From Lumbricus terrestris (Eukaryota > Annelida > Clitellata > Crassiclitellata > Lumbricidae), in contig OX457037.1 of NCBI GenBank assembly GCA_949752735.1, positions 32,544,966 to 32,608,965 on the forward strand: DNA of 64,000 nt. The letters run 5' to 3'. Each line of letters opens with the position of its first letter. Position 1 is the first letter of the stretch. Made by a program: the position numbers and the translations under genes. This document shows positions 21,501-64,000 of this stretch, piece after piece. The notes under the pieces are model-generated. The model made no database searches and was not told the origin of the DNA. It worked only from the letters and a program-made list of their open reading frames with translations.

Positions 21501-22018
21501 GAAACATGAAACGCCGATAGCCTGAGTTTCTGCGCACTCGCCGGCCGCATCAGCATCAGCCACAGCATCACTGCATCAGTGACATCAAAGAACTGACGCA
21601 TCCAGGTTGGAGACTGACTGACGTATTGGCCGCACAAACATCTGAACGAAAGGTCAGCGAACTTATCGATTGTCTTCAACGACCGACAATCCAGGGCAGC
21701 AGCAGCAGCAGCAGCAGCAATGGACGTCACTACAGACAGCACCAGCACAGCCCGCCAAGCAGAGGCAGAGACAGGCAGACAGACATAGCGCCACATCTAA
21801 TACGTCAGTCGGAAACATGGCAAGACATTCCAGAGGAGATAGGGAGGAACACGAAATGGACAAGAAGAATGGCTACGTCACAAGCAAGCGTACACATACG
21901 TGAAGATACACGGACACATACACGCAAGAGCTTGCAGACTGACAGACAAACCTACAAATAACTTGAATTGATGTGCTCTCAAGCTGATGGACATACATCA
22001 CATCGAACTGACTGCCAG

Positions 22019-22117
<99 letters not shown>

Positions 22118-25100
22118 TAGACAGACAGACAGAGACAGACAGAGACAAAGAGATAGATAGAGACACACACCCACACCTACAGAAGTGGACAATCAGACGA
22201 CGAAGCAGAGCATGCATGAAGAGACAAGGTCTTTGGGTGGATGACGATGACGACATTGCAGCAGTAGTAGACGACGACCTCAATGTCTGTCTGTCTGTAG
22301 CCAACGAGAAATGAGCTAAATACTGGAAAGAGGGGGGGCAATGACGACGCCAGTGAGGGGGAGGGGCACTGATGTCGTCTGCTGGTCAATGAAGCGGGGA
22401 GAAAAACGGAACAGCCAGACTGAAATCCACATTCAATGCAACATCCGATCTGCAACTCTTCCAATGCTTTGAACACTCAATGAATAATTGCATGCACAGA
22501 TAACACAGTCATTCATTCATTTATCCATTGTCCTAGAATTAATATAACACCAACTGTAGACCTTATTGACCGCCAGAAAGAGCCTGATGCAATGACCTGT
22601 GAACTCTCAACAGCTCAACCATTATTAATATGTCTCATCCAATCACTGCATCTATAGAATTATACACACATGTATGCATAATTACATATATATGTACATA
22701 CATAATTACATATATTATATAGATATATACAATTATTTATACATACAAACATACATAATTACATACATACATACATACTATATATATAGATATATACAAT
22801 TATACATCTTCTTCTGGGTATCTCCTCCGTCAGGCATACGCCAATGACGAGGTCTCAACATGCCGTCTCCAACTTGCTCTGTCCATGATTTTGTCCACTG
22901 CATCTCTCATATCCATGTTCTGTGCTGCTAGATCTTCTTTTATATTGTCCATCGAAGTCTTCTCTTTCCCTCAACATGCCCGGTAGAGCTGAGGCTGGTA
23001 GCCTTTTGTCCTCCATTCGCCTGACATGCCTGAACCACGTGAGTCTTCTTTTTCTGATCTTGTCCACCACCATTTCCTTTTGTCCCAGCTCCTCCCGAGT
23101 CACCATATATACATACACATATAGATTTATAGTTAAATACATCAAATGCAATTATACATACCCGGTACACTTATACATACATACATGTTGCATACACACA
23201 GCCATTAAGTGACACATTTGCACATTGCATGTTGCTGACATGAAAAAGTGTCCTGGTAAATGGCAGAACTTATATAATGGAAGAGAAAGTTGAACACAGA
23301 CAAGTTTCTTAACACAAGATTGATTGCTTGTCTGATTGCTTAATTGATTGACTGACACAACACAAGCACTGACACAATTGGGTTATCATCAGCATAGCAA
23401 ATGCTAATTGTGTAAACATCTGCGCTGGTCAACTGTGCTTTAAACCCAGGGCATTTGCAGTAGACTGCAAACCTAGGAGACTTTTTACAGATCAATAGCA
23501 TCAGTCTCTCCAGGGACAAATGTCCCTAATCAAGGTCTTCAGCAGTCTCACAAAAGGAAATTTCAAGGACACGGTGACCCAATTGATTGGACAAACTATG
23601 TTCTCACACAAGCCGCACATAGCAACAGCCTACAAAGTACACATACACCACACACAGGTTTAGTACGCACACTGAAATTATAAGGTTGCCCTTGGAGTCA
23701 TAACAAGAGCTAATTGTCTTTAATTGAGGCCAAGTTATATAACAGAGTTATTTTTTGTAGCTGAACTAATTTTAAGAGCTAAACCTCATTACATCCGATT
23801 TTAAAGCTCCGAGCTTAAAACAAAGTCTGTGTAAGAGTCTACACTGACTGAACATTCAGTCAATTAAGACAAAACTGAAATCTGAAATTCTGCAAGTCTC
23901 ATAATAATACTTCTCCTCAATATTAACTACTCAGTCAAGGTTGCCATGTTGTCACGAAAAGCGCAAGTTGGGTTACTTTTCACTGCGCTTACAACTGAAA
24001 TTTTTTTCCTCATGAACTCGTGATATTTTGGGTTCCTTTTAATAGTCCAGTGGTCGCCACGGCAATATTGTGAGTTCTCATAAAATGACAGCTGTAGGTT
24101 ACTGGGCTAACTTTAATAGATACTAGTCATATTTCGTGTTGCTGACTTAATAATATTAAATCCATGCTGTATGGCATAAGAACTAGTCTACGTAAGAACT
24201 AGGCAGTCTGCCATCTAAATTTTTACGTCGAAGGTTTCAGCACATGACTTGTGAAGTGATTAATGGAAATAAAGAAGTACGTTTATAATGCTCAGAGCAA
24301 ACATTTGCCAATTAATTTCTTCATATAGCTGAGCACTATCTCGTGACTTTTAGACTATTTTTTCGCGTGATCTCGTGACAAAGCATTTCCAAAATGTGGC
24401 AACCCTGATCTCAGTCACAACAGCGTCTCCTGATACCAGCCATATTTAAGGCAAAAAAAATAATGTTGTGTTTCCGGTAACCCGACCGACCCTCTTTTGT
24501 TGCCGCGACTCAAAAATTTTTGTAAAAAAATGTTATTTAAAAAAAAAGTTATGAAAAAAAAATTTTTTAATAAAAAAAATTTTTCTCAAATTTTTTTGGA
24601 CATAATACGGTGACATTGCCTTCCGTATAGAGTTGGATGCTAGGCAAAAAATGTTGTGTTCCCGGTAACCCAACCGACTCACTTTTATTGCAGCGACTCG
24701 GAAAATTTTGCGTAAATTTTTTATTTACATTGACATTGCCTTAGAGTTTCACGCCTGCCTAACTACTTCCTGGCTGCCAGTCTTGAGAAACCTCGAGCCT
24801 TATCATTCTCACTTGAGTCACCTCTAACGGTGACTAGAGAAAATAAATCTAGCAACCTCTAGGTGTAACTAGTCACTGGCTCGATCAGTCTGGAACGACC
24901 CCTAGCAGTGATGTTCTGTTCGCACTCATCTTCCCCTTCCCTTCCCACTTTATCTTACCAGAAAGGATGTCAACAAAATGAAATTAATAGAATTGTTTTC
25001 TAGAGCAATTTTAGGTACAGGGAAATAGGCAGTTTATACTTGCTTAGAACACGTACTTTGTTGCAGCGTGTACCTATATGCAAAAAAAGAGTATTTCGGT

Positions 25101-33610: not shown

Positions 33611-36600
33611 CCACCACCACCACCACCACCACCACCACCACCACCGCCACCACCGCCGCCACCACCACCGCCACCGCCGCCACCACCACCACCACGACGA
33701 CGACAATGGAAACCGCTCAGATTGAAGAACAGCCGATAAAAGTTTAGGGTTTAACGTGGAAGGGAACGCATGGGAATGATGTTCCCACTGCCCTTTCAAT
33801 TCATGGCTTGCGTTCCCACTGCTCACCATGCATGGAACTCAATAAAACTTTTCTTCAGCGATTTCACTGCTCACACATTCGGCATTCCCAGTCTTCACCC
33901 AAAACACTTCAACCACTGTATAGGCCAGCGTTTCCCAAACTTTTTGGGCCACGGAACCCTTCACGTCCTAATATTTTCGGGCGGAACCCCAATCTCAACT
34001 AAACGCATTGAATCATGCTGAACGGACGGGAAGCAAAGGCTACTAATAATGATAAGCCTACATACCTAAATACACCAAATTTCAGAAGGTTTATTTTTCT
34101 TACAATATCATTAAAGATTAAATTGCACTGTTTTCAAAACCACGATTTGTGGATCCTACATGAGGTTAGAATGTGAAGGTTCATTGGAATTCTGCTTCAT
34201 TCGTGATAGGTCAATTAGAAATTCGTAGTCACCGTTAGAAGAGTTGGCTGCTTTTCACCTTCATTGAGTGGTTTCGTATCCTATTATCGTAATTCATGAG
34301 AAAGAAGCATTTAACCAAGTTCGCTTTCAGTCGTGAAAATTATTTGCAATTTTTGAACGATGGTTTCCTCGAGAACCATTAAAAATTGTGTGAGTTTGGA
34401 ACGCGTTCCAAGTTTCTAAATTAAATAAAAGAGGTTAGAACCCTGGCTAGCGTACGTAAAAGTCACTCAATTTTGGCAAATTTTCACACAAACAATTTTA
34501 AACTCACTATTTGTTGCTACTACTACAAGATAAGACTTGGCGATTCTTTTTAAGCTTGCGTTTTACGGTGACAAGGATGACTGCGTCTCTGTTCAGACTA
34601 TAAGGCCTAAAGCTCTGACCTGCATGTACGTTACGTTCAGCAGTGATGTCTAAGCTTACACCAGCTACATACTATGATACTAGGCTAATTATTGGATTGC
34701 TAATAATCACTGAAAGGTCGGGTGAGGACAAAACACAAAAGATGACTGACGCTAGTTTCAAACTTCCAGTGCATTTTCAAAAGTTGCTTGAAATGTTGTA
34801 TTGCAGAAAAAATTCTTTTTTTCTCAACTTCTCGCGGAACCCTTGTGCTCGCTCCGCGGAACCCCTGGGTTCCGCGGAACCCAGTTTGGGAAACGCTGGT
34901 ATAGGCAATGGGCTGATAAGCACACAAAACATCACCACCACTACCACCACCATTTGAAAGAGAAAATACTCAAATTTTTTAAATCTCTTGATCAATAAGT
35001 TATTCACGCACCTCACCCGTCTGACCCTGTCGCATATATGCATGAGAGTTTTCAGCCAGCTTGGATGTATCATTCTATGGAATCCTAGGTGTACTGAGCT
35101 ATGAAGAATATACATGTATATGTTTCTGTAGCCACACTGTAATGCAAACGGGCTGTCAGTACCTGGTGGCATTTCAAAATATACCAATTTTCACCTATGT
35201 GCTGTCAGTGCTTTTGGCTTGCCGAAGACAGATGCTATCAGCATCCTAAAAATCCTCTGTAGCGCAGCTGCCATGCCACAAGTATCATTTCCGAGTATTT
35301 TTCTAGTTTCCTGTTGCTGAACCCAATTCACCATGTTTTGCAGTTCCTCCGAGTGGTTTGTTGAAAGACGGGGTATATATAGTGCTATAACGCCTGCGCT
35401 GGTCGATGCTTTGATCTGCGCCAGGACTGCTATGGGATTGCACGGTGGAGCTGCGAATTCTACGCAATTTGCACTTGCATCAGGTGCAGTAACCCGGGTG
35501 TAACTGAACTGCAAGAACTCATAAAGAATTCGTGAGGTTATTATAAGGCACTATAATACTAGATATAAATGTCCATATACATACAACAAGCTTTATTATT
35601 ACTTCTGTGTATAATTTTACATCTCTGACTTGTAAACCTGGTGCGGTATGTCACCCTGATTGTCTTTGAAATTAAAACGAATATACTACAACAAATGTCC
35701 TGAAAGAAATCGTTAGCAACCAGCCAGGATGCTTTTTGCCAACAGATATCACTTCCCATGTATTTGTTTCAATAATTGACTGAACAATTTCACATTGCAT
35801 ACTCATTACTAGGGTGTCCCAAAAAACACTTTTTCTTGAAATTCTTTGGTCACCCCAGTCAAAAAGTTTCCTATGGAGATGATAATGTTTGTGTAATTTT
35901 TTGAATTTTTAAAATAATTTTTAGGGGTCCCCCCAGGCTCGACATTTTATATATAGCGTATTATGATATTCGTGTGCAAATATTCAATATATGAGGCAAC
36001 GCCATTCACACCACATATATTTTAAATGCTTTTGCACAAAATATGATATGTCATACTATGTAATTGCTCAAAAAATGTTATGCTGTATTTTTCTCAGACT
36101 GGTTTTGCAGTTAATTGCCTGAAATTTGACAAAATTGATATATGCACAGACTTTCATATAGGCTATTATTAGAATCTGGAATATTATTTAACCATTATTG
36201 ACTACTATAACAATTCGAGCAGTTATTCAAAAAATGGTATACTTTGAGATGGCATATTGGTACACAGTACCAAATGTGAGATAGCCACATGTTTGGTTCA
36301 ATCAGTAGTAACTTCACTACATCGGAAGAAGTGACTCAAGTGAGTCATGGTTGCAATCTGGGAAGTACTTTCGATGCTTTTCAACAGCTTGCAACTGGAA
36401 CTGTTTATGGCTTTCATTTGTTATGGCATTAAATGTCTGTATCAGGCACAGCCATTGACACATGCCAAGTTGTTCACGATTACAATGTCGTAATTGAACG
36501 ATTTTCCAGATGGTCAAACCTCTCTAGAAAGCTGTCGTCAATGCCGGTAGTCTGGAAAGAGCTTTGAGAGAAATTTAGCTCTGGTAAAGCTGTGGAAGAA

Positions 36601-39600
36601 AGTTGGCCAAGTGAGATCCAATTTCGGTGTCATGTATAGTATGAGAGTTGCTTCCTTGTGTGGTGTTAAGAGATCGGAAAACAATTCAAGAGTTGTGTGA
36701 TCTGGACCGAAGTATCAAGAATTGCATTGCATTACTTTAAGTGCAGTAATACTGAGACCACGCAGGATAATCATAATTATGCTTGTAATCTTCTAACTAA
36801 CATGATGCAATTAAATGGAGCATCAGCTGAGGTCGGACAGTGCACCAGGATAGGATGTAGGCTTACACTGATACAACAAAAATGGTTAAAGTGATTTAAT
36901 TACAAATGAATGTCTGTATATGTTAAACAGATGACAGTCTCGTTTCCATAGAACAGCAACTCCATTTTCATTGAGTAATATAACGGCCTTTGCCATACAG
37001 TGTACTCTATCTGAAGAGCATCAAACTTGCAAATACCAGTTATGTTTGGTACATCCATCCCACCATCAACTCAGCAAATGTAAGGAATTCATGGAAATCC
37101 TCCATATGGTTATGCTCTGTGAGCCTGATCCAAAAAGCAAGTTTTAAAGCCCTCAGTTTACAATAATTATCTTTGGGGATTTTTGCTGCAGAAACTGACG
37201 TTTGTTTAAATTGAACCAGTTTTCATCAGACATCTTGAAAACACAGAATATCTGCAGCCTTGTAGATGGTCAAAGACACGTATAAAAGTCGCTGGAAAGC
37301 ATCACCTCAAAGATAGCACAAGTTCTCATATAGATGGTCAATTAATCAACTTTGACAGTGCTTTAGTTTTACTGTGGCTTGCCATGACAATAAAGTTAAC
37401 CAATATTGTAATATATAAAATATGTAACCGTTAACCCATATTTGCATTAGGGCCTATGTAACAGACTGTAGTGAAAAGGATATATCAAACAGTCTGAAAT
37501 TTCGTTTTGCACACTTAACGAAATGGCTGCTCCATACATGAAAACCTACGAAACAGCAGCTCTGCATGAAATTATGTATGTATGTATATGTAATATTATA
37601 TTATATATGACTTTTCTCAAAGTATACCATTTTTTGAATAACTGCTCGAATTGTTATAGTAGTCAATAATGGTTAAATAATATTCCAAATTCTAATAATA
37701 GCCTATATGAAAGTCTGTGCATATATCAATTTTGTCAAATTTCAGGCAATTAACTGCAAAACCAGTCTGAGAAAAATACAGCATAACATTTTTTGAGCAA
37801 TTACATAGTATGACATATCATATTTTGTGCAAAAGCATTTAAAATATATGTGGTGTGAATGGCGTTGCCTCATATATTGAATATTTGCACACGAATATCA
37901 TAATACGCTATATATAAAATGTCGAGCCTGGGGGGGACCCCTAAAAATTATTTTAAAAATTCAAAAAAATTACACAAACATTATCATCTCCATAGGAAAC
38001 TTTTTGACTGGGGTGACCAAAGAATTTCAAGAAAGTGTTTTTTGGGACACCCTACTCATTACTCACTTCGCAATTTCGCAAACTGTGGCACTATAAGCGT
38101 GACAGTAACTGAGTTGGTTAAGCACTATAGTAGGTCTACAGCCTAATCTTCGGCATCTACGTTTGTAAGTGCTAAATTATAATCGTCACTGTCATAATTA
38201 GCGGCACTCAACACATCATCAACATTACTAATGCAAGGAAATGTAATTACCGGTACTAACTTCTATAGTGCCGTTCACAGCCATGGCCATTCGGTAACGT
38301 TTAACTATTTGCGTAATTATTGTCGTCGTCGTCGTCATCATCATCACTGATAAACTTGTGTCACCCTCCTCCTTTCTCCAGGCTTGGGACTGGCACTGCC
38401 AAAGGGAGCAGTTGCCGAGTTTAAACTGATCTGTGTAGAATTTCACGTTAATATATAGACCTATGATGACACAGTGTCACCCAAAACAAGGAGAAGCGAA
38501 AGTACAAAGCATTTTTGCCATTCAGCTTAAGAATGAGGCGATATTCTAGTCAGATAATTAGTAATTTGTTTGTATGTGCATTGTGCACTTGTTATGCAAT
38601 GCTATTGTTTACATGCACAAATCGGAGTTGAACTATCTGCATGCCCAGACAAGGGAAGTAGGCCACTTCCATTGCCTTAATAGAGACTGGTCTTTAGTAT
38701 AATGTTCATGAAGCAACCTGTAATGTGTGTTTACACTTAATGCATCATAATTGTTTCCAACGTTCATTGTCTGTTGAATTATTCATTCAACAATAGAACA
38801 ACAGGATGGCATTTGCATAAGTCATTCAGAGTGTATTCTGAATGACTAACAGAACATCTAAATTGTAAGTTATACATAAATTAGGAAAATCAAACATTAC
38901 AAATATCATTTGTCTGATAGTCTGCATGCACCTGCAGATGAGTGTGGTCAAATATTAACATGAGAAATAATTGCCGTTAATTCAACGTATACAAAGAAAA
39001 TTGCTGTCCATCCTTTTGCAAGAAGGGAATGGGTCAGTTTGAAACTGATGTAATAATTATATGGTCAACAGTATCAAATTGGCAGACACATCAAGATAAC
39101 AAGCGCTGTCACCCTTGTCCACAAAGGTCATTTTGATTCTTTTGAAACTCTAATAAAGTGCAGACAATTAGCAGATTGAAAAAAGATCTATGAGATTGCA
39201 TAAAGATCAAGATCATATATTCCAGATATAAATTAGAAATAATACCGGGTAATTATAAATTAGTTAAGATGCGCCTGTAGTCTGAGAGTTCATCAAGGTC
39301 AAGACAGGCTTCTTTTGTAGGGGATTAGAAGTAGAGGATTAAGTGGTGAACAATAACATGACATATGGTAGAGAGAAAAACTATCTTGCACACAACATGA
39401 AGTTATTAATTTAAGGCAGAGGTCTCAAACAGCAGTTGATGCCAGAAAACAGTTTAAACTGACAGTGAAAATTATCAAATGCAGAAAAACCAGAAGAACC
39501 AATTTTTTAATTCATCACAAAGACACAAACTTCACCAGCAAAGAAATCCAGGAATTTATTGGCAAGTTCAGGGTTAGCCGAGTGCACGATGGAAGTTATC

Positions 39601-42600
39601 ACATTTCACATGATCCTGTAGGTGAAACAGAACTCTCAAGAGAGCAAGTCAGTGGAACTCATTTAAGTCGAGTATTTTTTAAAATAAGTGAATGTTTAAC
39701 ACAGTTTCATGCGCAAACACTGTGCTAAATAACGGCCAAAACCAATCAATGGCCTCGTCTTACAACAGCTCAACAGCCCTCGTCGTATCAAATGAACAAG
39801 GCTCATAGAACAAGTGCAAACGGATTGAGTCAGCAGCTACGACTGATACCAGGACCAACGTAGTACGTTCCGCAGCTAAGGTTTCCATGCTCATGACTGA
39901 CGCTTTGGTATTAAAGACGCAGCGATTGATATCAAAAACATAGACTATTATTCTCGATCCACACCCATCTCTGATTCACACCAGGTTGTTTCACAGTTTC
40001 TGCGTGCGATTTCATTTCAAGCAACCATTGACTCATCCATCAATCCATCCATCATGCAACACGACAATGGTGCTACAGTTAAGCCATTAGATCAGAATAT
40101 CTATTCAGGATTATTTGAAAGAAGCAGAGATAATGAAGAAGCTAAAGGTAAAAACAAGAATATATAGAACATATGCATTAGGGATATGACTATTTTTAAA
40201 ACCCTTTCCCCATGTCATTTGTTGTGGAGTTTTTATGCAAAGATCAAGAAAACACCAGTGGCAAGTGTCAACTCTTAAAAAAATGTCACCCACCAAATAG
40301 AAAAACAATTTACATTGTATATAAACACTGGCACAGCTGTGCCGCACATCGGAAAATTGTATTAAACGTTTTAAAGTACAGATTTTTTAGTGTTCGTTTG
40401 ACAAAAGAAATTTAATACTCAGTTTGTCAATGCTTTTACACAGTGGAAGTAAGTCCTGCATAACTTTAATTGCTCTTTCAGCACATATATTTGACCGTTG
40501 TGTTGGAATCGGTGTTGGCTCCACAGACCAAAAGTTCCTCAATGACTTTAATGCCTTTGAATGATTTTGACACACTTCTGCTAGATTATCAAAGTTGTCA
40601 GGATTATAGTACTGGCCAGAAAACCAGATGTCACTCCAAGTACCACAAATAAAGTCACATGCTGACTGACCTTCAGGTGACTGCTGGAATTGCGGAATTA
40701 AAATGTAAGCTAGCAAGGCAAAAATTGCTCTGCTATTCCATCTTGCATTGCTTATATTTGGCAGTGTTTTGAATTCTACCATAGGAAAGCTTCCTGTACT
40801 CTTAAAATCCTTGTAACAAGCAATCAAATGGTGAAGGAAAGCCATGTCATCTCGCCAGTCAATTTGTTCTACTTTCTTCAGAGCATTTCCAGAATTGTCA
40901 AACAATGCTTTCAATTGCTCGTACTCTTCTGTTACTTTCGTAATGAACCAATAACTGAGGTTTGGTGAGGTGGTTGCTCCATCAAAACAATCATCCATAA
41001 CATGTTTCAGTATTGTGTCGAGAACATGATGTTGGCATCCAATATAAAGAGGTTTCTGTAATCCAAGCAGAACAAAATGATTCTGTAGCCGTGTGACTGC
41101 ACCAATAGATTTTCCTGTATTTGCAGAGGTTGTATCAGAAATAATTATCTTAATTGCAGGCCATAGCTCATATTCATCAAGCACAGTCTTTATTCCATTA
41201 AATATAGTCTCACCTTTTCCATTGATTAGTTCAAGAACCGATAGTTTAACTTCTCTATTTTCATTTTTCAGAACTACAACTTGATACTCTCTCTTCTTTA
41301 TGCGCTTCCCATCAAAGTGCAAGCTCCAATTCTCGTTCCTTAAAGTTTCCTTATAGTGTTGCTTTAATTGTTCTCCTGCTTTCATTGTCGCTTTGTAAAC
41401 ACCACTTTGACTTGGAGTTGGAAGAGAAATTCCACTCTTTGCAAGAGTTTTGCAGACTGTGTGCGCCTTTCTTGTACTAAGTTTTGCTGATGTCACTAAC
41501 TGTACTGCTGAATCAGTTCTTTGTCTTTTAGATGTTGTTGGAGCATCCAAATCTTCATAGGCACTGCTGGAATCCTGTTTTTCTTCTTCAGTACCACAAC
41601 TTTCTTCTTCTTCTTCACTGCTTAATTCAACATTGGTGTCTTGACTAACTTTTAACTTAATCAACTGTAGCTTTCTAGGGTGAAGTCCTTTTGTATCTGT
41701 CTTTAAGGTACAATAACCAACTTTTCCTTTAGTCGACGTCTGAAGGTCATAGAATTCTCTGTCTTCTCGGCAAAACCATTCTCCATTCTCATCTGTCACA
41801 TTGAACAAACTGGTAAAGACTTGATTACCAGGTCTTCGACAATGTTTTTCGTATTTCTTAATTACATTTTCGATTTTTCTTTCAACTGAAGATTTGCCTT
41901 GCTGGATTGGAAAGTTAAGCTTTCTCCATAAGTTTTTGACCTCTTCAGCAATTATCAGAACTCTTTCTTTTTTGCCTTTCAGTGTTGAAGCCAAAGTCTT
42001 GAATCTATTCAAGATATGCAGTTCCATAGGCATTTTTGACATCGTGTCAAGACTGCTAACAGTGTTATGTTTCCTTGAATTCTTAGCTTTTTGAAACTGT
42101 ACCAAATTTGAAGACCAAACTTTCTTGTTTCTTTCTGTAGCAGAAGGTGCCTTTTTAGACATCTTGAAAGTGTCTGTAAAGTTCAGTTGATTTTTTATTT
42201 CAACTGCAATTGCAAGAAATCTGGTGTAAGACCTTTAAATAGTTTTCAACTTCCAATCTATATACATCAAGAAAAGATTCAAGAAGCAAGATAGCAATAA
42301 AACAATTTTTTGGCGGGTGGGTGACATTTTTTAAGAGTTGACACTAACCACTATTCTTTTTCTTTTAGAAAAGCAAAAGCTCCACTCATGATACTATGGG
42401 GAATTTGAAATTCTGAAAAAATTTTTTTTGTCATATCCCTAATATGCATAAGTCATATACATATGCAAGAATAAGAATATATAAACATATGCATACCGTT
42501 AAGTCATATACGTACGCAAGAATAAGAATATATAAACATATGCATACCGGTAAGTCATATACATATGCAAGAATAAGAACATATAAACATATGCATACCG

Positions 42601-49038: not shown

Positions 49039-49487
49039 GGGTAAATATTGCTCCTTTGGTTATTATTAGTATTGTTATTATTATTATTATTGTTATTATT
49101 ATTATAAGGTACAATATTGTTCCTTTGGTTAGCACGCTATTACCTCCTTCGAACTATAGACCTACTCTAATTGGGCAACCCTCTGATTAGACCTTGTGCT
49201 CCTGAATAAACCGGTGCCCAGCACTTGGTTTTCGAGTGGTGCTTTAGAAATTTGGAGATTACGATTATTCAGTCACTGAATTATACTCACAGATTCAATA
49301 TCTATTTCGTTGCCTTGCTCTTCATATCACTTAATGTAATTTGATCATTACGCCTATACTCCTTGCTTCAGTGATTCATGTGATTAAATAATCGGTCTGT
49401 ATGTAATATATACAATAATACATTCTGTGGATTGTTAACTACAGGAGTCAAGGTTTGGAAAGAGCTTGGTCAACAGCTGCTGTCTGA
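45632..49487 (+). CDS. EFCAB10: EFCAB10-like protein, complete gene of 4 exons
   Basis: Exons 45632-45749, 46812-46991, 48607-48700 and 49445-49487, all GT-AG with matching phases (1, 1, 2), give 435 nt and 144 residues. Residues about 12-53 (EARQFLKKHKIKELFDNLAS, then LLIYSQPDNPRQFL) match the RIIa-like dimerisation/docking fold of EFCAB10 (REYLEKHRIMELLNHLTS...RPENPREF). Residues about 80-105 are one EF-hand (LFNGTNLATIFDMIDPTGRG, then TISRQQYEDAM); the loop lacks acidic residues at positions 3, 5 and 12, so calcium binding is doubtful, as in vertebrate EFCAB10. The C-terminus ERAWSTAAV resembles the vertebrate KEIWSAF end. A Gly run (GGGGG) precedes the EF-hand. An upstream in-frame ATG at 45593 would add 13 residues. 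Proposed roles in the family are ciliary/axonemal. Confidence 0.88.
46482..46716. mobile_element. hAT-type MITE, 235 bp, with 8-bp TSD
   Basis: Starts CAGCGGCGCCCGCAGG and ends with the complement of CAGCGGCGCCCCCAGG. Flanked by perfect GGCCAGAT duplications (46474-46481, 46717-46724). Contains a direct repeat of GTCATCAGTTTTTTCGGCG. Lies in EFCAB10 intron 1. Confidence 0.92.
46812..46991 (+). CDS. EFCAB10: EFCAB10 exon 2 (EF-hand)
   Basis: Acceptor TTGACAG. Encodes NPRQFLAGEIERLRS, then CPRLFNGTNLATIFDMIDPT and QQYED plus one base. The donor GTATAT is the first dinucleotide of a (TA)n microsatellite. Confidence 0.93.
46992..47042. repeat. TA microsatellite at the exon-2 donor
   Basis: (TA)n of about 48 bp starting directly at the 5' splice site of EFCAB10 intron 2. 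Confidence 0.95.
47043..48606. other. EFCAB10 intron 2
   Basis: Contains a CATCAT/CGTCGT run at 48350-48382. No gene recognised. Confidence 0.5.
48607..48700 (+). CDS. EFCAB10: EFCAB10 exon 3
   Basis: Acceptor TTGCAG. AMRAIGAIESSDEDRLAVE to KEVFVNR, aligning with EALKTLGLCTEDED to KFKEEVNKR of vertebrates. If not spliced, the frame stops at TAG 48702-48704; splicing at GTAGGA into exon 4 fits the family C-terminus better. Confidence 0.82.
48880..49112. repeat. ATT trinucleotide repeats in EFCAB10 intron 3
   Basis: Extended (ATT)n with interruptions at 48942-49036 and 49058-49106. GGGTAAATATTGCTCCTTTG and GGTACAATATTGTTCCTTTG follow the two runs, so the block is duplicated. Confidence 0.93.
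49445..49487 (+). CDS. EFCAB10: EFCAB10 exon 4 (C-terminus)
   Basis: Acceptor CTACAG. In phase 2 it reads ASQGLERAWSTAAV and TGA. A different frame of the same segment is open longer (to about 49552), but exon 3 cannot be joined to it by a GT donor in the correct phase. Confidence 0.7.
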
Positions 49488-53778: not shown

Positions 53779-53786
53779 ACGTACAT

Positions 53787-55654
53787 TAGGGTGGAGTGAA
53801 AAACACGAATATTAGAAATCGAAAATCCGTTAGCAATAAAAAGTTGTCTTATGGTATGGGGTCAAGAAATATCAAAAAAGTTTTGAAAAATATTAATGTC
53901 TTCGTTTGCCCCCAGAGGGCCAAAGTTTCGAAAAATTGGAGTTTTTTGAGAAAATTGCAGGTTTTCTTATGAAATATTTTTAGTGTAAAATAATTAACCA
54001 CCAAGCAATACATCGTTGGAAAGAGCTCTTTAAACTGAGTAAAATCATATCTTAATTTCAAGAATATTCGCATATTTGTAGGAGATATTAACTTTTTAAG
54101 ATACCCCACGTTCGCGACATGTCGCTATGCCTGAAAATGGTAAAACACTAATAACTTTTTTTATCCTTTGTGATATTTCAACTTGTAATATGTCATTCTA
54201 TTCAGTTTATGACAGTCTATCTGACGGTGCATTTAAACTTATAAGAACCTTCCATTAAGAATTTCAAAGCTCATGAAACCCTACAAAAATGAGGAAAACT
54301 AAAGGAAATGTCCTCAGAAATTGCAAAAACTTTGAAAAAGTGTAGATAATTTTTTACATTGCAGCCTGCAAATGCACCACTGACAATTGCAAATGTACCA
54401 AAGCCAGAAAGGTTCCAAGAGAGGAACAAGAGTCCTACATGATCAACAGACAATTAGAGTTATGACGATTAGCCGTCAGGATAAGATTATATCAACTTCA
54501 CTAAAGAAGCGGCATGATAGAAAGAGAAAGGAGACCATGCGCCTATAATATGTCGTAAACGTCTAGATTTCGTCAACGAACAAGCATTAGCAGACAGCAG
54601 TGTTCAAAATAATGAAACGGACAGTGAAGTAAATCCAGTAAAGTGTAAAATCTTGCCAGAAGATGAATCCAAGGGTGTGTCAGAAAAGTCAAGACCTATA
54701 GTAATCGTAATCGTAATCGTAATCTCGAGACTTCTACAGCGCCCACAAAAGCGTCTGTCTCTCTCTGTCCGTCTATATCCACCCACAAGATTTTACACTT
54801 TACTGGATTTACTTCACTGTCCGTTTCATTATTTTGAACACTGCTGTCTGCTAATGCTTGTTCGTTGACGAAATCTAGACGTTTACGACATATTATAGGC
54901 GCATGGTCTCCTTTCTCTTTCTATCATGCCGCTTCTTTAGTGAAGTTGATATAATCTTATCCTGACGGCTAATCGTCATAACTCTAATTGTCTGTTGATC
55001 ATGTAGGACTCTTGTTCCTCTCTTGGAACCTTTCTGGCTTTGGTACATTTGCAATTGTCAGTGGTGCATTTGCAGGCTGCAATGTAAAAAATTATCTACA
55101 CTTTTTTCAAAGTTTTGCAATTTCTGAGGACATTTCCTTTAGTTTTCCTCATTTTTGTAGGGTTTCATGAGCTTTGAAATTCTTAATGGAAGGTTCTTAT
55201 AAGTTTAAATGCACCGTCAGATAGACTGTCATAAACTGAATAGAATGACATATTACAAGTTGAAATATCACAAAGGATAAAAAAAGTTATTAGTGTTTTA
55301 CCATTTTCAGGCATAGCGACATGTCGCGAACGTGGGGTATCTTAAAAAGTTAATATCTCCTACAAATATGCGAATATTCTTGAAATTAAGATATGATTTT
55401 ACTCAGTTTAAAGAGCTCTTTCCAACGATGTATTGCTTGGTGGTTAATTATTTTACACTAAAAATATTTCATAAGAAAACCTGCAATTTTCTCAAAAAAC
55501 TCCAATTTTTCGAAACTTTGGCCCTCTGGGGGCAAACGAAGACATTAATATTTTTCAAAACTTTTTTGATATTTCTTGACCCCATACCATAAGACAACTT
55601 TTTATTGCTAACGGATTTTCGATTTCTAATATTCGTGTTTTTCACTCCACCCTA
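53787..55654. mobile_element. Palindromic fold-back hAT derivative, 1868 bp, carrying a LINE scar
   Basis: Starts TAGGGTGGAGTGAAAAACAC and ends with its complement. Two 869-bp inverted arms (53787-54655 and 54786-55654) are nearly identical, separated by 130 bp. Flanked by perfect ACGTACAT duplications (53779-53786, 55655-55662). Each arm is the left end of the longer element at 60936. The centre (54702-54752) is the 3' end of the LINE seen whole at 61851. The identical small frames in both arms are not host genes. Confidence 0.96.
54702..54752 (-). mobile_element. 51-bp LINE 3' end inside the fold-back
   Basis: (TAATCG)n tail then TCTCGAGACTTCTACAGCGC and CCACAAAAGC, identical to 61851-61901. 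Preceded by the same TATAG insertion site. Confidence 0.93.
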
Positions 55655-55662
55655 ACGTACAT

Positions 55663-55790
55663 GCATGCTTGCAAGCATACATACCTACATGCATACATTA
55701 CATACATGCATACATGCATACATACATACATACATGCATACATACATACATACATGCATACATACATACATACATACATACCATTAAGTT
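55663..55790. repeat. ACAT/GCAT tetranucleotide repeat
   Basis: CATACATACATGCATACATA-type tandem run. Confidence 0.95.
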
Positions 55791-56130
55791 GGTACTGGCG
55801 TATTAAATGACAGAGCGATGCTGATAAATGTAGCTAAAGTCTGCGCCAGATGACTGCGATTTAAATTTTAGATAAAAGTCTCAGCAAACAGACAGCGTAA
55901 ACAATTGTGGTTTTTTCATGACGAATTCAATCGCTAATGTGCTTTAGAATTACAAGTAAATATATAGTTCAGTCTGAAATGGAGCTTCATCCAGTTCGTC
56001 ACATCACCGATAAGTCGCCATCTCCATTTCTTCTTCCTTCTAAACTGATCTTCTTTCATCCTCCTTCTAATCCCTCGGCTCTCTATGCAAGAAAACGGTT
56101 AGCCTAAACTAAAACAACACAAAACTACCG
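55791..56130. other. Intergenic
   Basis: Nothing recognised. Confidence 0.4.
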
Positions 56131-56330
56131 ACAAACAGAGCTTACGGGAGTTTAAGCACCGCCAGAGGCCCCCTGCCATGTAACGAGCTTACGGGAGTTT
56201 AAGCCACGCCAGAGGCCCGGCAGGTCTACTACTAACTTATAGGCACAAATACGAAAACGAACGAGCAAACCCCATGGCTTACGGGATGTTAGGCCACGCC
56301 AGAGGCTCATGGGGTCGCTTAGTCACAAAC
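56131..56330 (+). repeat. Three spaced copies of a 30-bp motif
   Basis: GCTTACGGGAGTTTAAGC followed by ACCGCCAGAGGC or CACGCCAGAGGC, at about 56142, 56188 and 56278. The third is enclosed in a CCCCATG/CATGGGG inverted repeat. Confidence 0.75.
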
Positions 56331-56971
56331 AACTAGTAACAGAAACACAGACGAACAGAGCCACAGTGCAACCATAACACGCATCACAATCAATCCCTCC
56401 GCACACACACACACATCCACCCCATCTCACCATAACGGCAGAATCAGTGCCGCCAATCATGCACTGGAACCTATAAAAATACAGAAAAACCAGCAAGGTC
56501 ATTACACGTTATGCAAATATGTACCACTAGTATTGGAAATAGGCTTACAAGATTATCCGGCACTGGTGAGACTCACTTAAATATAAATATAAATATAAAG
56601 TAAAGCAAGAAGCATTAATTAACCGTATCATCAAGTCAGATTAATTATTTCACTATGCGCCGTACACATGACACAAACAACAGGCTATAACTTGCAGTGG
56701 CGCTATAGAAATGGAGAAATAAATAAATGGGTCTTAATAATTTACCTGTTAGGACTAGTTAGTTTTTTGCCAGAAAGCAGAGGTTTCAGAGAGATGCTTC
56801 CTTCAGTAGTCGCTGCAGTGTGAGCTGAACTTTTTTCAAAACACGGGCCATGCATTGGAAGCCCGTTACTTAAACCGACGCGGCACAGCAATGTATACCT
56901 TCCTCCTGGAGACTGTACAAAAAGGAAACCCATGACATTAAAAAAAAAACTGGAAAATTGCTACTCAGGAA

Positions 56972-57490
56972 CAGGGGTGGATAGAGGGGGCCAATCCAAT
57001 TTCAGGCGACTCAATATGAAATTTATCTTTGACCTGACAGAGGCGGACGAGACGGGGGTCCAGGGTTGGTAAATGCCCCCCCAATTTCGAGCAAATGTGT
57101 TTTTCGGGCAAAAGAGGCATGGACGGGCCAAAGAAATCGGAAATTTTTTCGGGCAAAACAAGTACGGGAAGATTTTTTCCGGCACGCAGGGGTAAAAAAA
57201 TCCGAAAAATCTGACGACCTTTTTTTACCTACCCACGGGAAAATTCTAAGAATTTTGGGCGAATGACTAAAAAAATTGTCAGATTTTTCAGTGGCGGATA
57301 CAGAACGTTTCGAAGAGGGAGGCCAAAAATTTCGGTCTTGGGCAAGCATAGGCGTACGGGACATTTCGGCAGTGGGGGGCAATGTTTTGTTTGCCCCCCC
57401 TCCACTGCCGAAATGTCCCGTATACGCCTATGCTTGCCCAAGACCGAAAATTTTGGCCTCCCTCTTCGAAACGTTCTGTATCCGCCACTG
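56972..57490. mobile_element. hAT-type MITE, 519 bp, with a nested near-perfect hairpin
   Basis: Starts CAGGGGTGGATAGAGG and ends with the complement of CAGTGGCGGATACAG. Perfect CTCAGGAA duplications (56964-56971, 57491-57498). The right 199 bp (57292-57490) fold as a hairpin with arms of about 95 bp, both starting CAGTGGCGGATACAGAACGT. Confidence 0.9.
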
Positions 57491-57498
57491 CTCAGGAA

Positions 57499-59513
57499 TG
57501 TGGTGCAACATCGCTAAAAATGTAGTGCCTTATCTTATTTTATCTTTAAGATAAAAAGACATAGAAATTATTCCAATTATTGTAGTGTAATGTATTGATT
57601 GATCATCATCTCTTTAAGGTGACGGATAACATGTTACTTAGGCGCTCGATCACAAAAATGTTATAGGCGCCTGATTCTGAGAATTTAATTACTGAGATTA
57701 CGACTACAAACTTTACACAAATGAAACGAAAATATATTTAACAAAATTTTATGCACGGACATACATGTAGGCTACCACATCCGTATATGACATCGTCAGT
57801 AATGTAGCGAATGCAGTTAAATGTGATGCCAAAATGTATTGCTTGGTCTGGCTAGGTGGCCTGATCTATAGGCGCACTCTGAAAATGCCAAAACATCATC
57901 TGAATAAAAAAATTATTTCTGTTATACCAAAAGATAAACATGCAAATTAATTAGACCTGTCTAATATAATATGCGATCAACCGACACAGATTGCCAATAA
58001 TTATTATCCTAATTGGCTTGATTTCGATCCCTTAAAATAGGTCTAATATGCTGTAGGCCTAAGCCGATTGAAGTTGGAGTCCAAGCTATCATGGCCTATA
58101 GTGTACTGGTTAATCATGCGAATAAAACCGAATCACTTACGTTTTACAAATTATTCATCTGTCTTCTAATTCCACTTCAAACGTCCTCATGACTTGCTCT
58201 TATTCTTCTTCAGGTAGCTTTCAGTTAGCCATATAGCGGTTTCTAAGTGACACAAGGCAAAGACTCTGTCACAACTATAAGCCGGATATGATATTTATTT
58301 CTCTAGGGTCAATTGATGCCTGTGACGTCACAATACACTTCAATCTTCATTATCTAAATCGAGTTGACGTCTGTGGTCCAAAAGTATGACGTCAAATCAA
58401 ACTTTTTAAGACCTTCTTAAGACATTAATGTTTCTACATGTAGATGAAAATGACGTCATAATACCGGTTGCGCTCATTAGACAATTTGGAAATCGGAGAC
58501 GGTCCCCACGGCCTTCTAGATTCACAAGATTCAGGGGTCATAAACAGTCTATTTCTTGAGTCTACAGTCTGTCCTAGACGACTCCGTTGCTATTGTTTCT
58601 GCATGACTTTCTCTATCTATCTGTCTCTCTGTGTCTGTATCAACCTGTCTGTCTGTCTCCGTCTTTCGGTTTTAAAAGAAGGCAATTTTTCAGTTGGATA
58701 TGTATACTTTCTAGCTAATTACTATTTACTTCTTACTTGCATCAAATTACTTTCTGCAAAGTAATTTCAAATTTACCAGACATCGTTATAGTCAATGAAT
58801 GATTATTTTTCGGTTTTTCAAATGAGGATGAGGATTTCTGTCATGATCATAAAAGACTTACTTATCGAATAATTTCTTTTTCATTTCGATGATCATCATC
58901 TGCCCATCAGTTAGGAAACTGTTGCTCGTCTTCATCTGTGCCATCTTTCGTCGTATTTTGTCAAATTTTACATCGTTTTGTCATCGTTTTCTCATTTTCA
59001 GCATCTTTTGTCGTCTTATTCGTCACAATCTTCAGCCTGCCACATTCCAGAAACTAATGAGAGAACAAATTAAAATCATAGCGTTGTGCGATGACGTCAT
59101 ATATGAGGATTGTGATGTCAGACGACTTATTAGTAAAGGGACAATCGCAACGAGTCTTGTGTCACTACCTCGTTGTCGCCATTATACTTAGCATATAATA
59201 CAAAGTATACGTATTCAATGCTATAAATTATATAGGTTCTACGCCGGATTAAATTGTTGCACGGCCTGGCGGTATGTAGTAGACCAATTTAGACTATGAG
59301 CACAATTTAGCCACACATTGAAAACACGAATCGTAAACTTTTATAAGTTGTCTCGGTCAATTAGGCCACAGAATAGATAAAACGCCGCTTTATCCATTCT
59401 GTGATTAGGCCTACATTTATTATGCTTCAACTAAGTTCCGTTTGAGTGGTGTGTGTCTGTTAGGAAACGATGTAGTTTAACCGAATCAGCCAACGCTGAT
59501 CCATGTCCTTGAG
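57499..59513. other. Intergenic
   Basis: Several small frames without recognisable domains. (CTGT)n-like tract at about 58610-58660. Nothing assigned. Confidence 0.45.
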
Positions 59514-59605
59514 CATGGGCGGAGATTTACGGGGACAAGGGGGATGGTCCTCCTCAATGGATGTGGTGGGGGTACGGCCCATGCATTTGCGCCCCCCCCA
59601 ATCGG
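59514..59605. mobile_element. Partial MITE related to 12672-12951
   Basis: CATGGGCGGAGATTTACGGG, GGTCCTCC, GGCCCATGCATTTG and CCCCCCAATCG match the right half of the 12.7-kb element in inverted order. The other end is missing. Confidence 0.65.
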
Positions 59606-60300
59606 TAATCGGTAAGTGTTAGGCGCAGAGCTCTGGTGTGTGTTAGAACCACTGCAAAAAAGACCTGGAACGCTTAACGGCCCATAATTTTTATTCCATT
59701 CATCGGGACCTGCACAGTGCACATGCACTTAATCGAGAATTTTCTAGAGTTTGTTCGGGCACGCTCAGTTCTATGAGGCTAAGTTTCTCGTGTTGTATAC
59801 GGTACAAGTGTATGTATGTCTGAGGATATGGTAAAGAGATTGGCATGGGAGATAGGCAATGTGTTGTAAGAATATCGATGCATGAATTCACACATCTGCA
59901 ATTGACAATTGTTTAATTTGTAAAACTTTTAGAATCCCGAGCTGCGTGCATAACTTTTCTGAGTGCGAGTTGTAAGGAGAAGCATGCAGCTATATTATTC
60001 TGACAATTCTATTCTGCAAAACATTAATTCTATGAAGTCCAGAGTTATAGTTAATAGATGCCCATATCATGTTACAATATATAAATAATTATATATATAT
60101 ATATATATCACAGAGTCACGCAGCATGCAGACCTTTGTGACCGTATGAGAAGTGCTAGTATAACCTATATACTATTGAATTAAGAGAAAGATCGCACTTA
60201 TATATATATATATATATATATAGGGTATACGCATATCACTGCTTTCACATCTTTACACGAATTTAAGTAGCAGAGGCCTGTAGTATTAATATATAGTAGG

Positions 60301-60572
60301 CATAGGCGTACGAGACGGGGGTCCAGAGAGAGCAAATGCCCCCCAAAATTTCGGGCAAATGTGTTTTTCGGGCAAAAGAGGCATGGACGGGCCAAAAAAA
60401 TCGGAATTTTTTCGGGCAAAACAGGTACGAGAGGATATTTTCGGGCGCGTAGGGGTAAAAAAACGTCGTCAGATTTTTCGGACGGGAAAATCCTAAGAAT
60501 TTTGGGCGTCAGATTTTTCGGGCAAACAAATTTTTTTGCCCCCCCACTGCCGAAATGTCCCGTACGCCTATG
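60301..60572. mobile_element. hAT-type MITE, 272 bp
   Basis: Starts CATAGGCGTACGAGACGGG and ends with the complement of CATAGGCGTACGGGACAT. Flanks ATAGTAGG and ATAGTAGA match at 7 of 8 positions. Its interior (TTTTTCGGGCAAAAGAGGCA) is shared with 57110-57290. Confidence 0.9.
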
Positions 60573-61850
60573 ATAGTAGACCTATTTTTTAGAGATTATC
60601 CAGACTCCAGTGAAATCAAAGTGAATTTCAGAACTCGGATGCATGTGATAGTGCATGCATGAGAGTGCATGGAATGGTGTATATCGGCGGTGCATGGTAG
60701 AAACAAGGGCAACACTTTTTAGCGCGCATGCAGTTTTAAAAATTATAATGTGCAGTTCTAAATGGATTTCTGCAGTTGTAGAAGCATGTGTATAGTTTAA
60801 AAATTAAAATAGTAAGAAAAGTTATTGTTATCCGATCGGAAGTAAGTGTATACTATGTAAGATGGGAAAGGAGAGAAGAGGTTGCGCAATTTTAAAAATT
60901 CATTAGGCTATATTATAAAAGCCTTGAGTATACATTAGGGTGGAGGGAAAAACACGAATATTAGAAATCGAAAATCCGTTAGCAATAAAAAGTTGTCTTA
61001 TGGTATGGGGTCAAGAAATATCAAAAAAGTTTTGAAAAATATTAATGTCTTCGTTTGCCCCCAGAGGGCCAAAGTTTCGAAAAATTGGAGTTTTTTGAGA
61101 AAATTGCAGGTTTTCTTATGAAATATTTTTAGTGTAAAATAATTAACCACCAAGCAATACATCGTTGGAAAGAGCTCTTTAAACTGAGTAAAATCATATC
61201 TTAATTTCAAGAATATTCGCATATTTGTAGGAGATATTAACTTTTTAAGATACCCCACGTTCGCGACATGTCGCTATGCCTGAAAATGGTAAAACACTAA
61301 TAACTTTTTTTATCCTTTGTGATATTTCAACTTGTAATATGTCATTCTATTCAGTTTATGACAGTCTATCTGACGGTGCATTTAAACTTATAAGAACCTT
61401 CCATTAAGAATTTCAAAGCTCATGAAACCCTACAAAAATGAGGAAAACTAAAGGAAATGTCCTCAGAAATTGCAAAACTATGAAAAAAGTGTAGATAATT
61501 TTTTACATTGCAGCCTGCAAATGCACCACTGACAATTGCAAATGTACCAAAGCCAGAAAGGTTCCAAGAGAGGAACAAGAGTCCTACATGATCAACAGAC
61601 AATTAGAGTTATGACGATTAGCCGTCAGGATAAGATTATATCAACTTCACTAAAGAAGCTGCATGATAGAAAGAGAAAGGAGACCATGCGCCTATAATAT
61701 GTCGTAAACGTCTAGATTTCGTCAACGAACAAGCATTAGCAGACAGCAGTGTTCAAAATAATGAAACGGACAGTGAAGTAAATCTAGTAAAGTGTAAAAT
61801 CTTGCCAGAAGATGAAACCATGGATGTGTCAGAAAAGTCAAGACCTATAG

Positions 61851-63682
61851 TAATCGTAATCGTAATCGTAATCTCGAGACTTCTACAGCGCCCACAAAAG
61901 CCAAGTTGCGGGAACCAGCTTATTCACAGGCGCTCAATCAAAACAAAATCGATAGGCAGCGGGTCAAGTCCGGAGAGTCAGGCAGGCAGATAGATGGACG
62001 ACTAAGGTGGGTGATGTTTAGAGTTGAAGTGGCGGAGGATGTGAGGAGAAGAGGAAGAATCAGGATAGGATTTGTGAAAGAGCAATGTTTTCAGTTTTGA
62101 GTGAAAGACCTGTGGGGAGATAGCGAGAGGTGGAGTTTTGGTGAGTTCGTATGATGGGTCGGAAGTTTGCCGAAGTGCTGGCGGAAGTTTGTTCCAGAGA
62201 GGTGGAACGGCAATGGCTATGGAGCGGTTTGCGAATTTCAGTGATGAAGTGATGGGAGGGCGAAGCAGTGTAATGGAGGATGAGGAGCGTGTTGAACGAG
62301 GTGGCTGGATGGTGAACAACTGACGAAGGTAGAACGGCTGGGATGATTGAAGTGTATTGTAAGTGAGTGAGAGGACTTTGTATTCAATGCGTTCAGGTAT
62401 TTTGAGCCAGTGAAGTGATTTCAGGACAGGAGTGATGTGGTGACGTTTGGGGGTTTTCGTCACTGCACGGGCGAGGGCATTCTGGATAGCTTGGAGGCGG
62501 TTAATTTGGGTTATATCAATGTTTAGGAAGAGAGAGTTGCAGTAATCAAGTTTCGCATGAACTATGGATGTGGCTATTGTGGATGCAGTTTTAAAGTCGA
62601 GCATAGGTCGGATTCTGCGGAGATCTCGTATGTGCATGAAACAAGTGCGGGAAAGTTGGGTTATGTGGTCGGAGAAGCTAAGATGCTGGTCAAAGATTAC
62701 ACCTAGGTTTCGGACAGGAGAATTTGCGGAGAAAGTGTGGTTGGAAGAAGAGTCATTGTTGAAGGAAATAGAGGGATCAGGAATTTTCTTGAGTTGTTCT
62801 CTGAGGCCAATTAGTATAAATTCTGTCTTGGAGGGGTTAAGGCAGAGGAGATTTGAGGTCATCCAAGAGGTGATTTGGGTGACCACGGAGAGAAGATTGT
62901 CTATGGAGTCAGAGAAGCTGCTTGGAGAGAAAGAGATGAATAGTTGGGTGTCGTCAGCATATAGATGATGGTCGACTGTGGATGCTTTTATGAGTGAGCT
63001 GAGTGGAGTGGTGTAGAGGATGAACAAGAGGGGTCCGAGGACAGAACCTTGCGGAACACCACAGGTGAGAGGGCATGATTGAGAAGACGTTTCAAGTGTT
63101 TTGACTGAGAAAGAGCGTGATGAGAGATAAGACTGAATCCAAAGGAGAGCATTGTCGGTAAAGCCAAAGCAGGAGGATAGTCTTTGGAGTAGTATGTTAT
63201 GGTCGATGGTGTCAAAGGCTGCAGAGACATCAAGGAGGCAAAGGCAGGAGACTTGTTGATGAGAGATGGCAGAGACAAGTTTATTGTAGAGCGAAGTGAG
63301 AAGTGTTTCGGTGGAGTGCTTTTTAGTAAAGCCGGACTGGTTTGGGTTAAGGAGTGAATTTGAAGTCAAGTAGTCATTGATGCGAGAGAGTACAACACGT
63401 TCTGTTAGTTTAGAGATGAATGACAGGTTGGAAACAGGTCGATAATTAGAAAGGATTTCCTTATCAAGTGATGGTTTTTTTAGAAGTGGAGTTACCAAAG
63501 AATGTTTGAAGAGGAGGGGAAAGTTGCCAGTGGATAAGGAGAGGTTGATTATTTTTGTGATGATGGGGACAATGATAGATGCGCACTCTTTCAGTAGGGA
63601 GGTAGGTATAGGGTCGAGTTCGCACTGCTTGTTTGGGAGAGATTGTAATAAATTGGACACTTCATTTGGAATAACCGCATAG
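61851..63682 (-). mobile_element. 5'-truncated CR1/L2-like LINE, 1832 bp
   Basis: Inserted in minus orientation between TATAG duplications (61846-61850, 63683-63687). The 3' end is (CGATTA)n preceded by GGGCGCTGTAGAAG. It carries ORF2 from the middle of the reverse transcriptase to its stop. Confidence 0.92.
62002..63660 (-). CDS. LINE ORF2 reverse transcriptase, 5'-truncated, uninterrupted
   Basis: 552 codons open to the natural stop. RT blocks in order: DPIPTSLLKEC, NYRPVSNLSFISKLTERVVL, QSGFTKKHSTETLL, LCLLDVSAAFDTIDHNILL, GVPQGSVLGPLLFILY, then HLYADDTQLFISF with the catalytic YADD, and LNPSKTEFILIGL. The C-terminal ending has VPPLWNKLPPAL and FHSKLKTLLF. The endonuclease domain and the start of the RT are missing because of 5' truncation, so the element cannot move by itself, but the frame is undamaged, implying recent insertion. 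Motifs fit the CR1/L2 (Jockey) group. Confidence 0.92.
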   Translation of the reverse strand: MSNLLQSLPNKQCELDPIPTSLLKECASIIVPIITKIINLSLSTGNFPLLFKHSLVTPLLKKPSLDKEILSNYRPVSNLSFISKLTERVVLSRINDYLTSNSLLNPNQSGFTKKHSTETLLTSLYNKLVSAISHQQVSCLCLLDVSAAFDTIDHNILLQRLSSCFGFTDNALLWIQSYLSSRSFSVKTLETSSQSCPLTCGVPQGSVLGPLLFILYTTPLSSLIKASTVDHHLYADDTQLFISFSPSSFSDSIDNLLSVVTQITSWMTSNLLCLNPSKTEFILIGLREQLKKIPDPSISFNNDSSSNHTFSANSPVRNLGVIFDQHLSFSDHITQLSRTCFMHIRDLRRIRPMLDFKTASTIATSIVHAKLDYCNSLFLNIDITQINRLQAIQNALARAVTKTPKRHHITPVLKSLHWLKIPERIEYKVLSLTYNTLQSSQPFYLRQLFTIQPPRSTRSSSSITLLRPPITSSLKFANRSIAIAVPPLWNKLPPALRQTSDPSYELTKTPPLAISPQVFHSKLKTLLFHKSYPDSSSSPHILRHFNSKHHPP

Positions 63683-64000
63683 TATAGGCCTACCTCACAA
63701 AATTAATGAAACTAAGCAAATGAGAAAGAGATTGTCGAAGTTGTCACGACTCTGTGGCCGATATGAAACATCGGATAGAGCAGATGCGGTTATTCCAAAT
63801 GCTGTACTAGAAGACCTTGGTATTCTTTCACACATCAAATCAAAGCATGTGATGGATCGCTATGAGCTTCGACGTGTGAAAGAATCACTAGACAGAATGC
63901 AATGCAGGAAGTTGAAATAAGGGATTCAACTGAGGTCCGCAAAGGTTTGTCAGCCACTCTGGGACAGAGTAAAGCAGGAAGGTGATCTGACCGACGTCTC

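Follow-up and report, generated by a model that had tools for sequence, protein, structure and literature searches.

A palindromic hAT-like element with a trapped LINE junction and its possible origin by duplication of a transposon end

RESULTS

The window analyzed here, meaning the whole 64-kb stretch of DNA, contains at positions 7081-7485 a reading frame that matches RAF kinases (best match, B-raf, 3.2e-26), indicating that the window comes from an animal genome. A THAP-domain frame (8.1e-08) followed by a frame without a Pfam match occupies 9864-11417 and, from its resemblance, may be a remnant of a P-type transposase, and a long tandem array with a 27-bp unit, open in several frames, was observed at 20563-21564. 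No Rfam match was obtained over the window at gathering thresholds. A scan for C/T-A-A/G-N-G ends bordered by an exact 8-bp duplication gave eight candidate pairs in the window. An element of 973 bp with hAT-like ends lies at 33926-34898 (16-bp terminal repeat CAGCGTTTCCCAAACT; duplication GTATAGGC), and a small near-perfect hairpin with 68-bp arms and the ends CAGTGGCGGATACAGAACG lies at 57289-57490.

The element under study is a near-perfect inverted repeat of 1868 bp at 53787-55654. The sequence-only reading that preceded this work had described two 869-bp arms copying the left end of an element at 60936 (here element E), and direct comparison bore this out. The left arm spans 53787-54655 on the plus strand, and the right arm, at 54786-55654 on the minus strand, is the left end of E in inverted copy. 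Aligning the arms, as had been proposed earlier, revealed two compensating 1-base A indels, at 54325 and 54335, as the sole differences between them. Relative to E (60936-61804), the left arm exhibits four substitutions and two indels, and the right arm exhibits the identical four substitutions and nothing further. Since both arms share these substitutions, they derive from one copy or were homogenized.

The palindrome is flanked by two copies of ACGTACAT, at 53779-53786 and 55655-55662, so the perfect 8-bp duplication claimed previously was also confirmed. These are the only two copies on the plus strand of the window, and the other strand has one, at 34624. A CATA microsatellite (55676-55781) starts 13 bp past the right copy, and no CATA array is present at the left one. 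Both ends of the palindrome read TAGGGTGGAG, and the longer terminal sequence is TAGGGTGGAGTGAAAAACAC. A single copy is visible, with no further copies of the palindrome within the 64-kb window, and its 115-aa frame has no match in Pfam. As an exact pattern, the terminal sequence gave 0 matches in viral contigs (34 bases) and 0 in prokaryote genomes (21 bases), which is no surprise for an animal element.

The 8-bp duplication and the termini fit the hAT superfamily, in which the Ac terminal sequence is C/TAGGGATGAAA (PMC3260210); the C/TAGGG terminus is matched at both palindrome ends. However, the terminal repeats typical of hAT elements are short, at 5-27 bp (PMC3517528), versus 869 bp in the palindrome, and for this reason we use the term hAT-like rather than hAT, leaving membership aside. 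Long, near-identical inverted arms, here 869 bp and two indels apart, are a Foldback-type trait. In the Buster group of hAT, the target consensus is nnnTAnnn (PMC3517528); ACGTACAT and the left flank of E, GTATACAT, fit it, but CTCATTAC and ATATGCAT, the duplications of two other TAGGG-ended elements of the window, do not.

Next, the center of the palindrome was examined. The sequence-only reading had placed a 51-bp LINE 3' end between the arms; a LINE stretch of that length is indeed present at TATAG, but the arms are separated by 130 nt in all. This interval is composed of 41 nt of element sequence, single-copy in the palindrome (54656-54696, plus strand; three substitutions relative to 61805-61845), the LINE target site TATAG (54697-54701, plus strand), 51 nt of LINE 3' end, comprising the tail repeat and the adjoining 3' region (54702-54752, minus strand; identical to 61851-61901), and 33 nt of unstranded, microsatellite-like filler (54753-54785). 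TATAG and the LINE scar together (54697-54752) are identical over 56 nt to 61846-61901 in E. The palindrome thus reads as the left 910 bp of the element with TATAG and 51 nt of LINE, then filler, and then the inverted left 869 bp. The filler matches neither the visible part of E nor any other part of the palindrome, and the closest sequence to it in the rest of the window is a simple repeat at 22117-22140 (92% over 24 nt). The 7-mer CCCACAA occurs on either side of the filler, at 54742 and 54782, and could represent microhomology. No unusual hairpin was found at the center (54650-54790, 141 nt), where 38 of 200 shuffled sequences folded equally well or better (z, -0.91). Compared with E, substitutions number 3 of 97 in the single-copy spacer and 4 of 869 in the arms (Fisher P = 0.025, for a comparison picked post hoc). 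This weakly hints at conversion or homogenization between the arms, which would weaken comparisons made with them.

Long near-perfect palindromes are a known form of chimera, and the palindrome resembles that form, so that a mirror chimera arising during assembly or library preparation was considered. We regard such an artifact as highly improbable. The symmetry reaches no further than the terminal repeats and a few bases within the flanking 8-mer; the outer flanks differ, the 130-nt center is asymmetric, the arms are two indels apart, and an 8-bp direct repeat surrounds the element.

In element E, the left 910 bp (60936-61845, plus strand) precede a first copy of TATAG (61846-61850, plus strand), and the element continues after a second copy (63683-63687, plus strand), from 63687 to 64000 on the plus strand, where it is cut by the window end; E extends beyond the window, and its right end and target duplication lie outside the visible sequence. 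An open frame starts at 61670, with 58 codons open upstream of CCT at 61844, roughly 45 of which belong to the stretch copied in the arm. Past the LINE, 77 codons are open until TAA at 63918, in the phase expected when one TATAG is counted, a phase match that chance would give in one-third of cases. The first 300 bp of E showed no subterminal repeats above shuffle maxima.

The insert itself (61851-63682, minus strand) is 1832 nt long and lies at TATAG, as the sequence-only reading had stated for the LINE as a whole; however, 18 nt of it are probably not LINE. The 5'-truncated LINE spans 61851-63662 on the minus strand, and a frame on the same strand (62002-63702) contains a reverse transcriptase domain (RVT_1, 3.7e-34). 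At its 5' junction, 63663-63680 (minus strand), just ahead of AG and the second TATAG, is an exact inverted match to 63784-63801 in E, the longest such match at 18 nt (300 shuffles: mean, 6.4; maximum, 11), suggesting an extra stretch derived from the flank. In cultured cells, the zebrafish L2-clade elements ZfL2-1 and ZfL2-2 show, respectively, a 5-bp target duplication and extra 5'-junction nucleotides that come from the flank (PMC4245944). The LINE in E (61846-63687) resembles them in its 5-bp TATAG duplication and its flank-derived 5' nucleotides, which makes its insertion an unremarkable one with a recognizable signature; the likeness to L2 is one of insertion signature only, as the RVT_1 match does not discriminate the LINE clade. 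The LINE 3' region is also matched at 49203-49267, with 77% identity over 65 nt.

The palindrome and E share the LINE junction by common descent: site, orientation, and tail (three TAATCG units followed by the greater part of a fourth) are the same. After the 51-nt scar, the palindrome has no second TATAG, and it has 0 12-mers in common with the visible post-LINE part of E. These comparisons support the descent of the left half of the palindrome from a LINE-bearing copy, either E or a near-identical sister. The claim that LINE insertion preceded the palindrome is, for the junction, well supported by sequence comparison, given the 56-nt identity, the missing second TATAG, and the absence of post-LINE element sequence. 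The possibility that a short LINE had inserted separately at this TATAG was rejected, given that the palindrome has neither a second TATAG nor any 12-mer from the part of E visible after the LINE. Tandem duplication of the locus was likewise rejected, since the 5' flank of the palindrome shows no relationship to that of E (local score, 18, against a mean of 17.6 and a maximum of 28 in shuffles).

Two other TAGGG-ended elements of the window bear on the origin of the arms. The element at 40179-42441 is complete, with a 12-bp terminal repeat, TAGGGATATGAC, the duplication ATATGCAT, and a 591-aa frame. The predicted fold of this frame best matches Hermes, with no Pfam family reaching the cut-off, and a transposase with a Hermes-like fold is predicted to be encoded. 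The element at 35810-38054 (2245 bp; duplication CTCATTAC) exhibits near-identical 440-bp arms around a 1365-bp spacer, for which no stop-to-stop frame of at least 110 aa is listed. Its ends, TAGGGTGTCCCAAAAAACAC, are alike those of the palindrome, TAGGGTGGAGTGAAAAACAC, at 15 of 20 positions, and past the ends, the comparison with E gave nothing longer than short local matches, scoring 23 to 25 without a shuffle control. This element can be read as a native long-armed relative or as another case in which an end was doubled.

DISCUSSION

The origin of the long, fold-back-like arms of DNA transposons is usually inferred from end products. In this window, about 5 kb separates a parent-like, LINE-bearing copy from its putative product, and two events can be placed in order by means of the LINE junction. 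The explanation that we favor, to which we give as a whole slightly better than an even chance, is that one transposon end was duplicated after the LINE insertion and that the product then moved to ACGTACAT. A copy of a hAT-like DNA transposon would have been hit by a LINE at TATAG, leaving the 5-bp duplication and a short flank-derived 5' stretch. Later, repair synthesis in the LINE-bearing copy, either E itself or a sister almost identical to it, would have been aborted 51 nt into the LINE, or the DNA would have broken at that point. Fold-back synthesis or the joining of sister copies would then have attached the broken end to the element's own first 869 bp, copied in inverted orientation, with 33 nt of filler at the joint. 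The resulting element, with two left ends facing outward, would then most likely have been moved as one unit to ACGTACAT by a transposase acting in trans. Fold-back inversions via single-strand hairpins have been described in yeast (PMC7467729). Filler DNA is usual in Ds2, a deletion-type hAT derivative (PMC3260210), and the filler in the palindrome therefore fits the favored route.

The inverted duplication put forward by the sequence-only reading is plausible but unproven. The inner boundary of the arm falls within an open frame. Because a terminal repeat would not normally include the start of a coding region, this position is easier to reconcile with a duplicated left end than with a repeat native to the element. 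On the other hand, the neighbor at 35810-38054, with its similar ends and near-identical arms, suggests that long repeats may be native. If the parent had native terminal inverted repeats of about 870 bp, the palindrome could be an ordinary internal deletion with filler in the style of Ds2, consisting of the left repeat with 41 nt, TATAG, and 51 nt of LINE, then filler, and then the right repeat. A single event would be enough, and in Galileo, TIRs are described that grow and absorb coding sequence and inserted elements (PMC4168063). Although it is a serious rival, we consider this internal deletion somewhat unlikely: the inner part of the arm belongs to a frame that stays open, in matching phase, on the far side of the LINE, hAT terminal repeats are mostly 5-27 bp (PMC3517528), and the complete element with TAGGG ends that begins at 40179 of this window has a repeat of 12 bp. 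Full-length relatives carrying long arms would make the palindrome an ordinary deletion. If more copies share the LINE/filler junction, an element with two left ends would be proven mobile and its age would be measurable.

The sequence-only reading also held that the palindrome transposed after it had formed. The 8-bp duplication attests to the insertion of an element with these ends, but the existence of the palindrome at that time is unproven; movement after formation is likely, not proven. The mobile fold-back family envisaged by the same reading finds no support in the window, where the palindrome occurs once. In Hermes, a hAT element, the arrangement adopted by a two-left-end complex is, according to the authors, incompatible with transposition, and about 220 bp from both ends is required in cells (PMC10368747). 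Given that arrangement, a two-left-end element need not be mobile. This objection no longer applies if the palindrome was made in place, that is, if a LINE-bearing copy was at ACGTACAT first and failed repair after excision replaced its right part with a copy of the left end through a template switch at the terminal repeat. The 8-bp repeat attests to the insertion of an element with these outer ends, whatever its interior, and the filler and abrupt junctions would suit interrupted repair. However, the repair would have to switch template inside the terminal repeat while keeping the outermost bases, and the process is less simple than inserting a finished element; formation in place thus seems to us quite improbable. 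Returning to end duplication followed by movement, a broader proposal, which we think unlikely, is that one end suffices for movement in the TAGGGTG-ended hAT-like group, that its non-autonomous families arise recurrently by fold-back doubling with filler, and that the palindrome and 35810-38054 are independent products of this process in the same 64-kb window, one of them dated by its LINE scar.

Among the matches listed from the open-licence literature, judged by title or the start of the abstract, no palindromic hAT element with a LINE scar was found. The available text on Bari MITEs (PMC4877112) and on MULEs with multiple TIRs (PMC3310237) has no bearing on the LINE scar. Three known systems resemble the palindrome more closely. 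The Ds2-type derivatives of Ac, a hAT element of maize, are non-autonomous, have an 8-bp duplication and a C/TAGGG end, and contain unrelated filler (PMC3260210), but Ds2 retains both Ac ends, whereas the palindrome has the same end twice. Galileo, a Foldback-like element, has long, near-identical arms, for which template switching during repair has been proposed, and secondary TE insertions have been taken into its TIRs (PMC4168063). It belongs to the P superfamily and has 191 copies annotated in one genome, whereas the palindrome has hAT-like ends and one copy in the window; in addition, the palindrome carries its LINE scar in the spacer rather than in the arms, unlike the insertions within the TIRs of Galileo (PMC4168063). 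The Atlantic cod MITE gadMor-hAT-1784, classed as hAT, is non-autonomous, with a palindromic consensus and TIRs of about 600 bp, but these TIRs are tandem repeats, unlike the arms studied here, and the available text of its description mentions no LINE scar (PMC12368964). Overall, the present element belongs to a known kind, that of non-autonomous elements with palindromic structure or long arms, and with its trapped LINE junction it is a well-ordered example.
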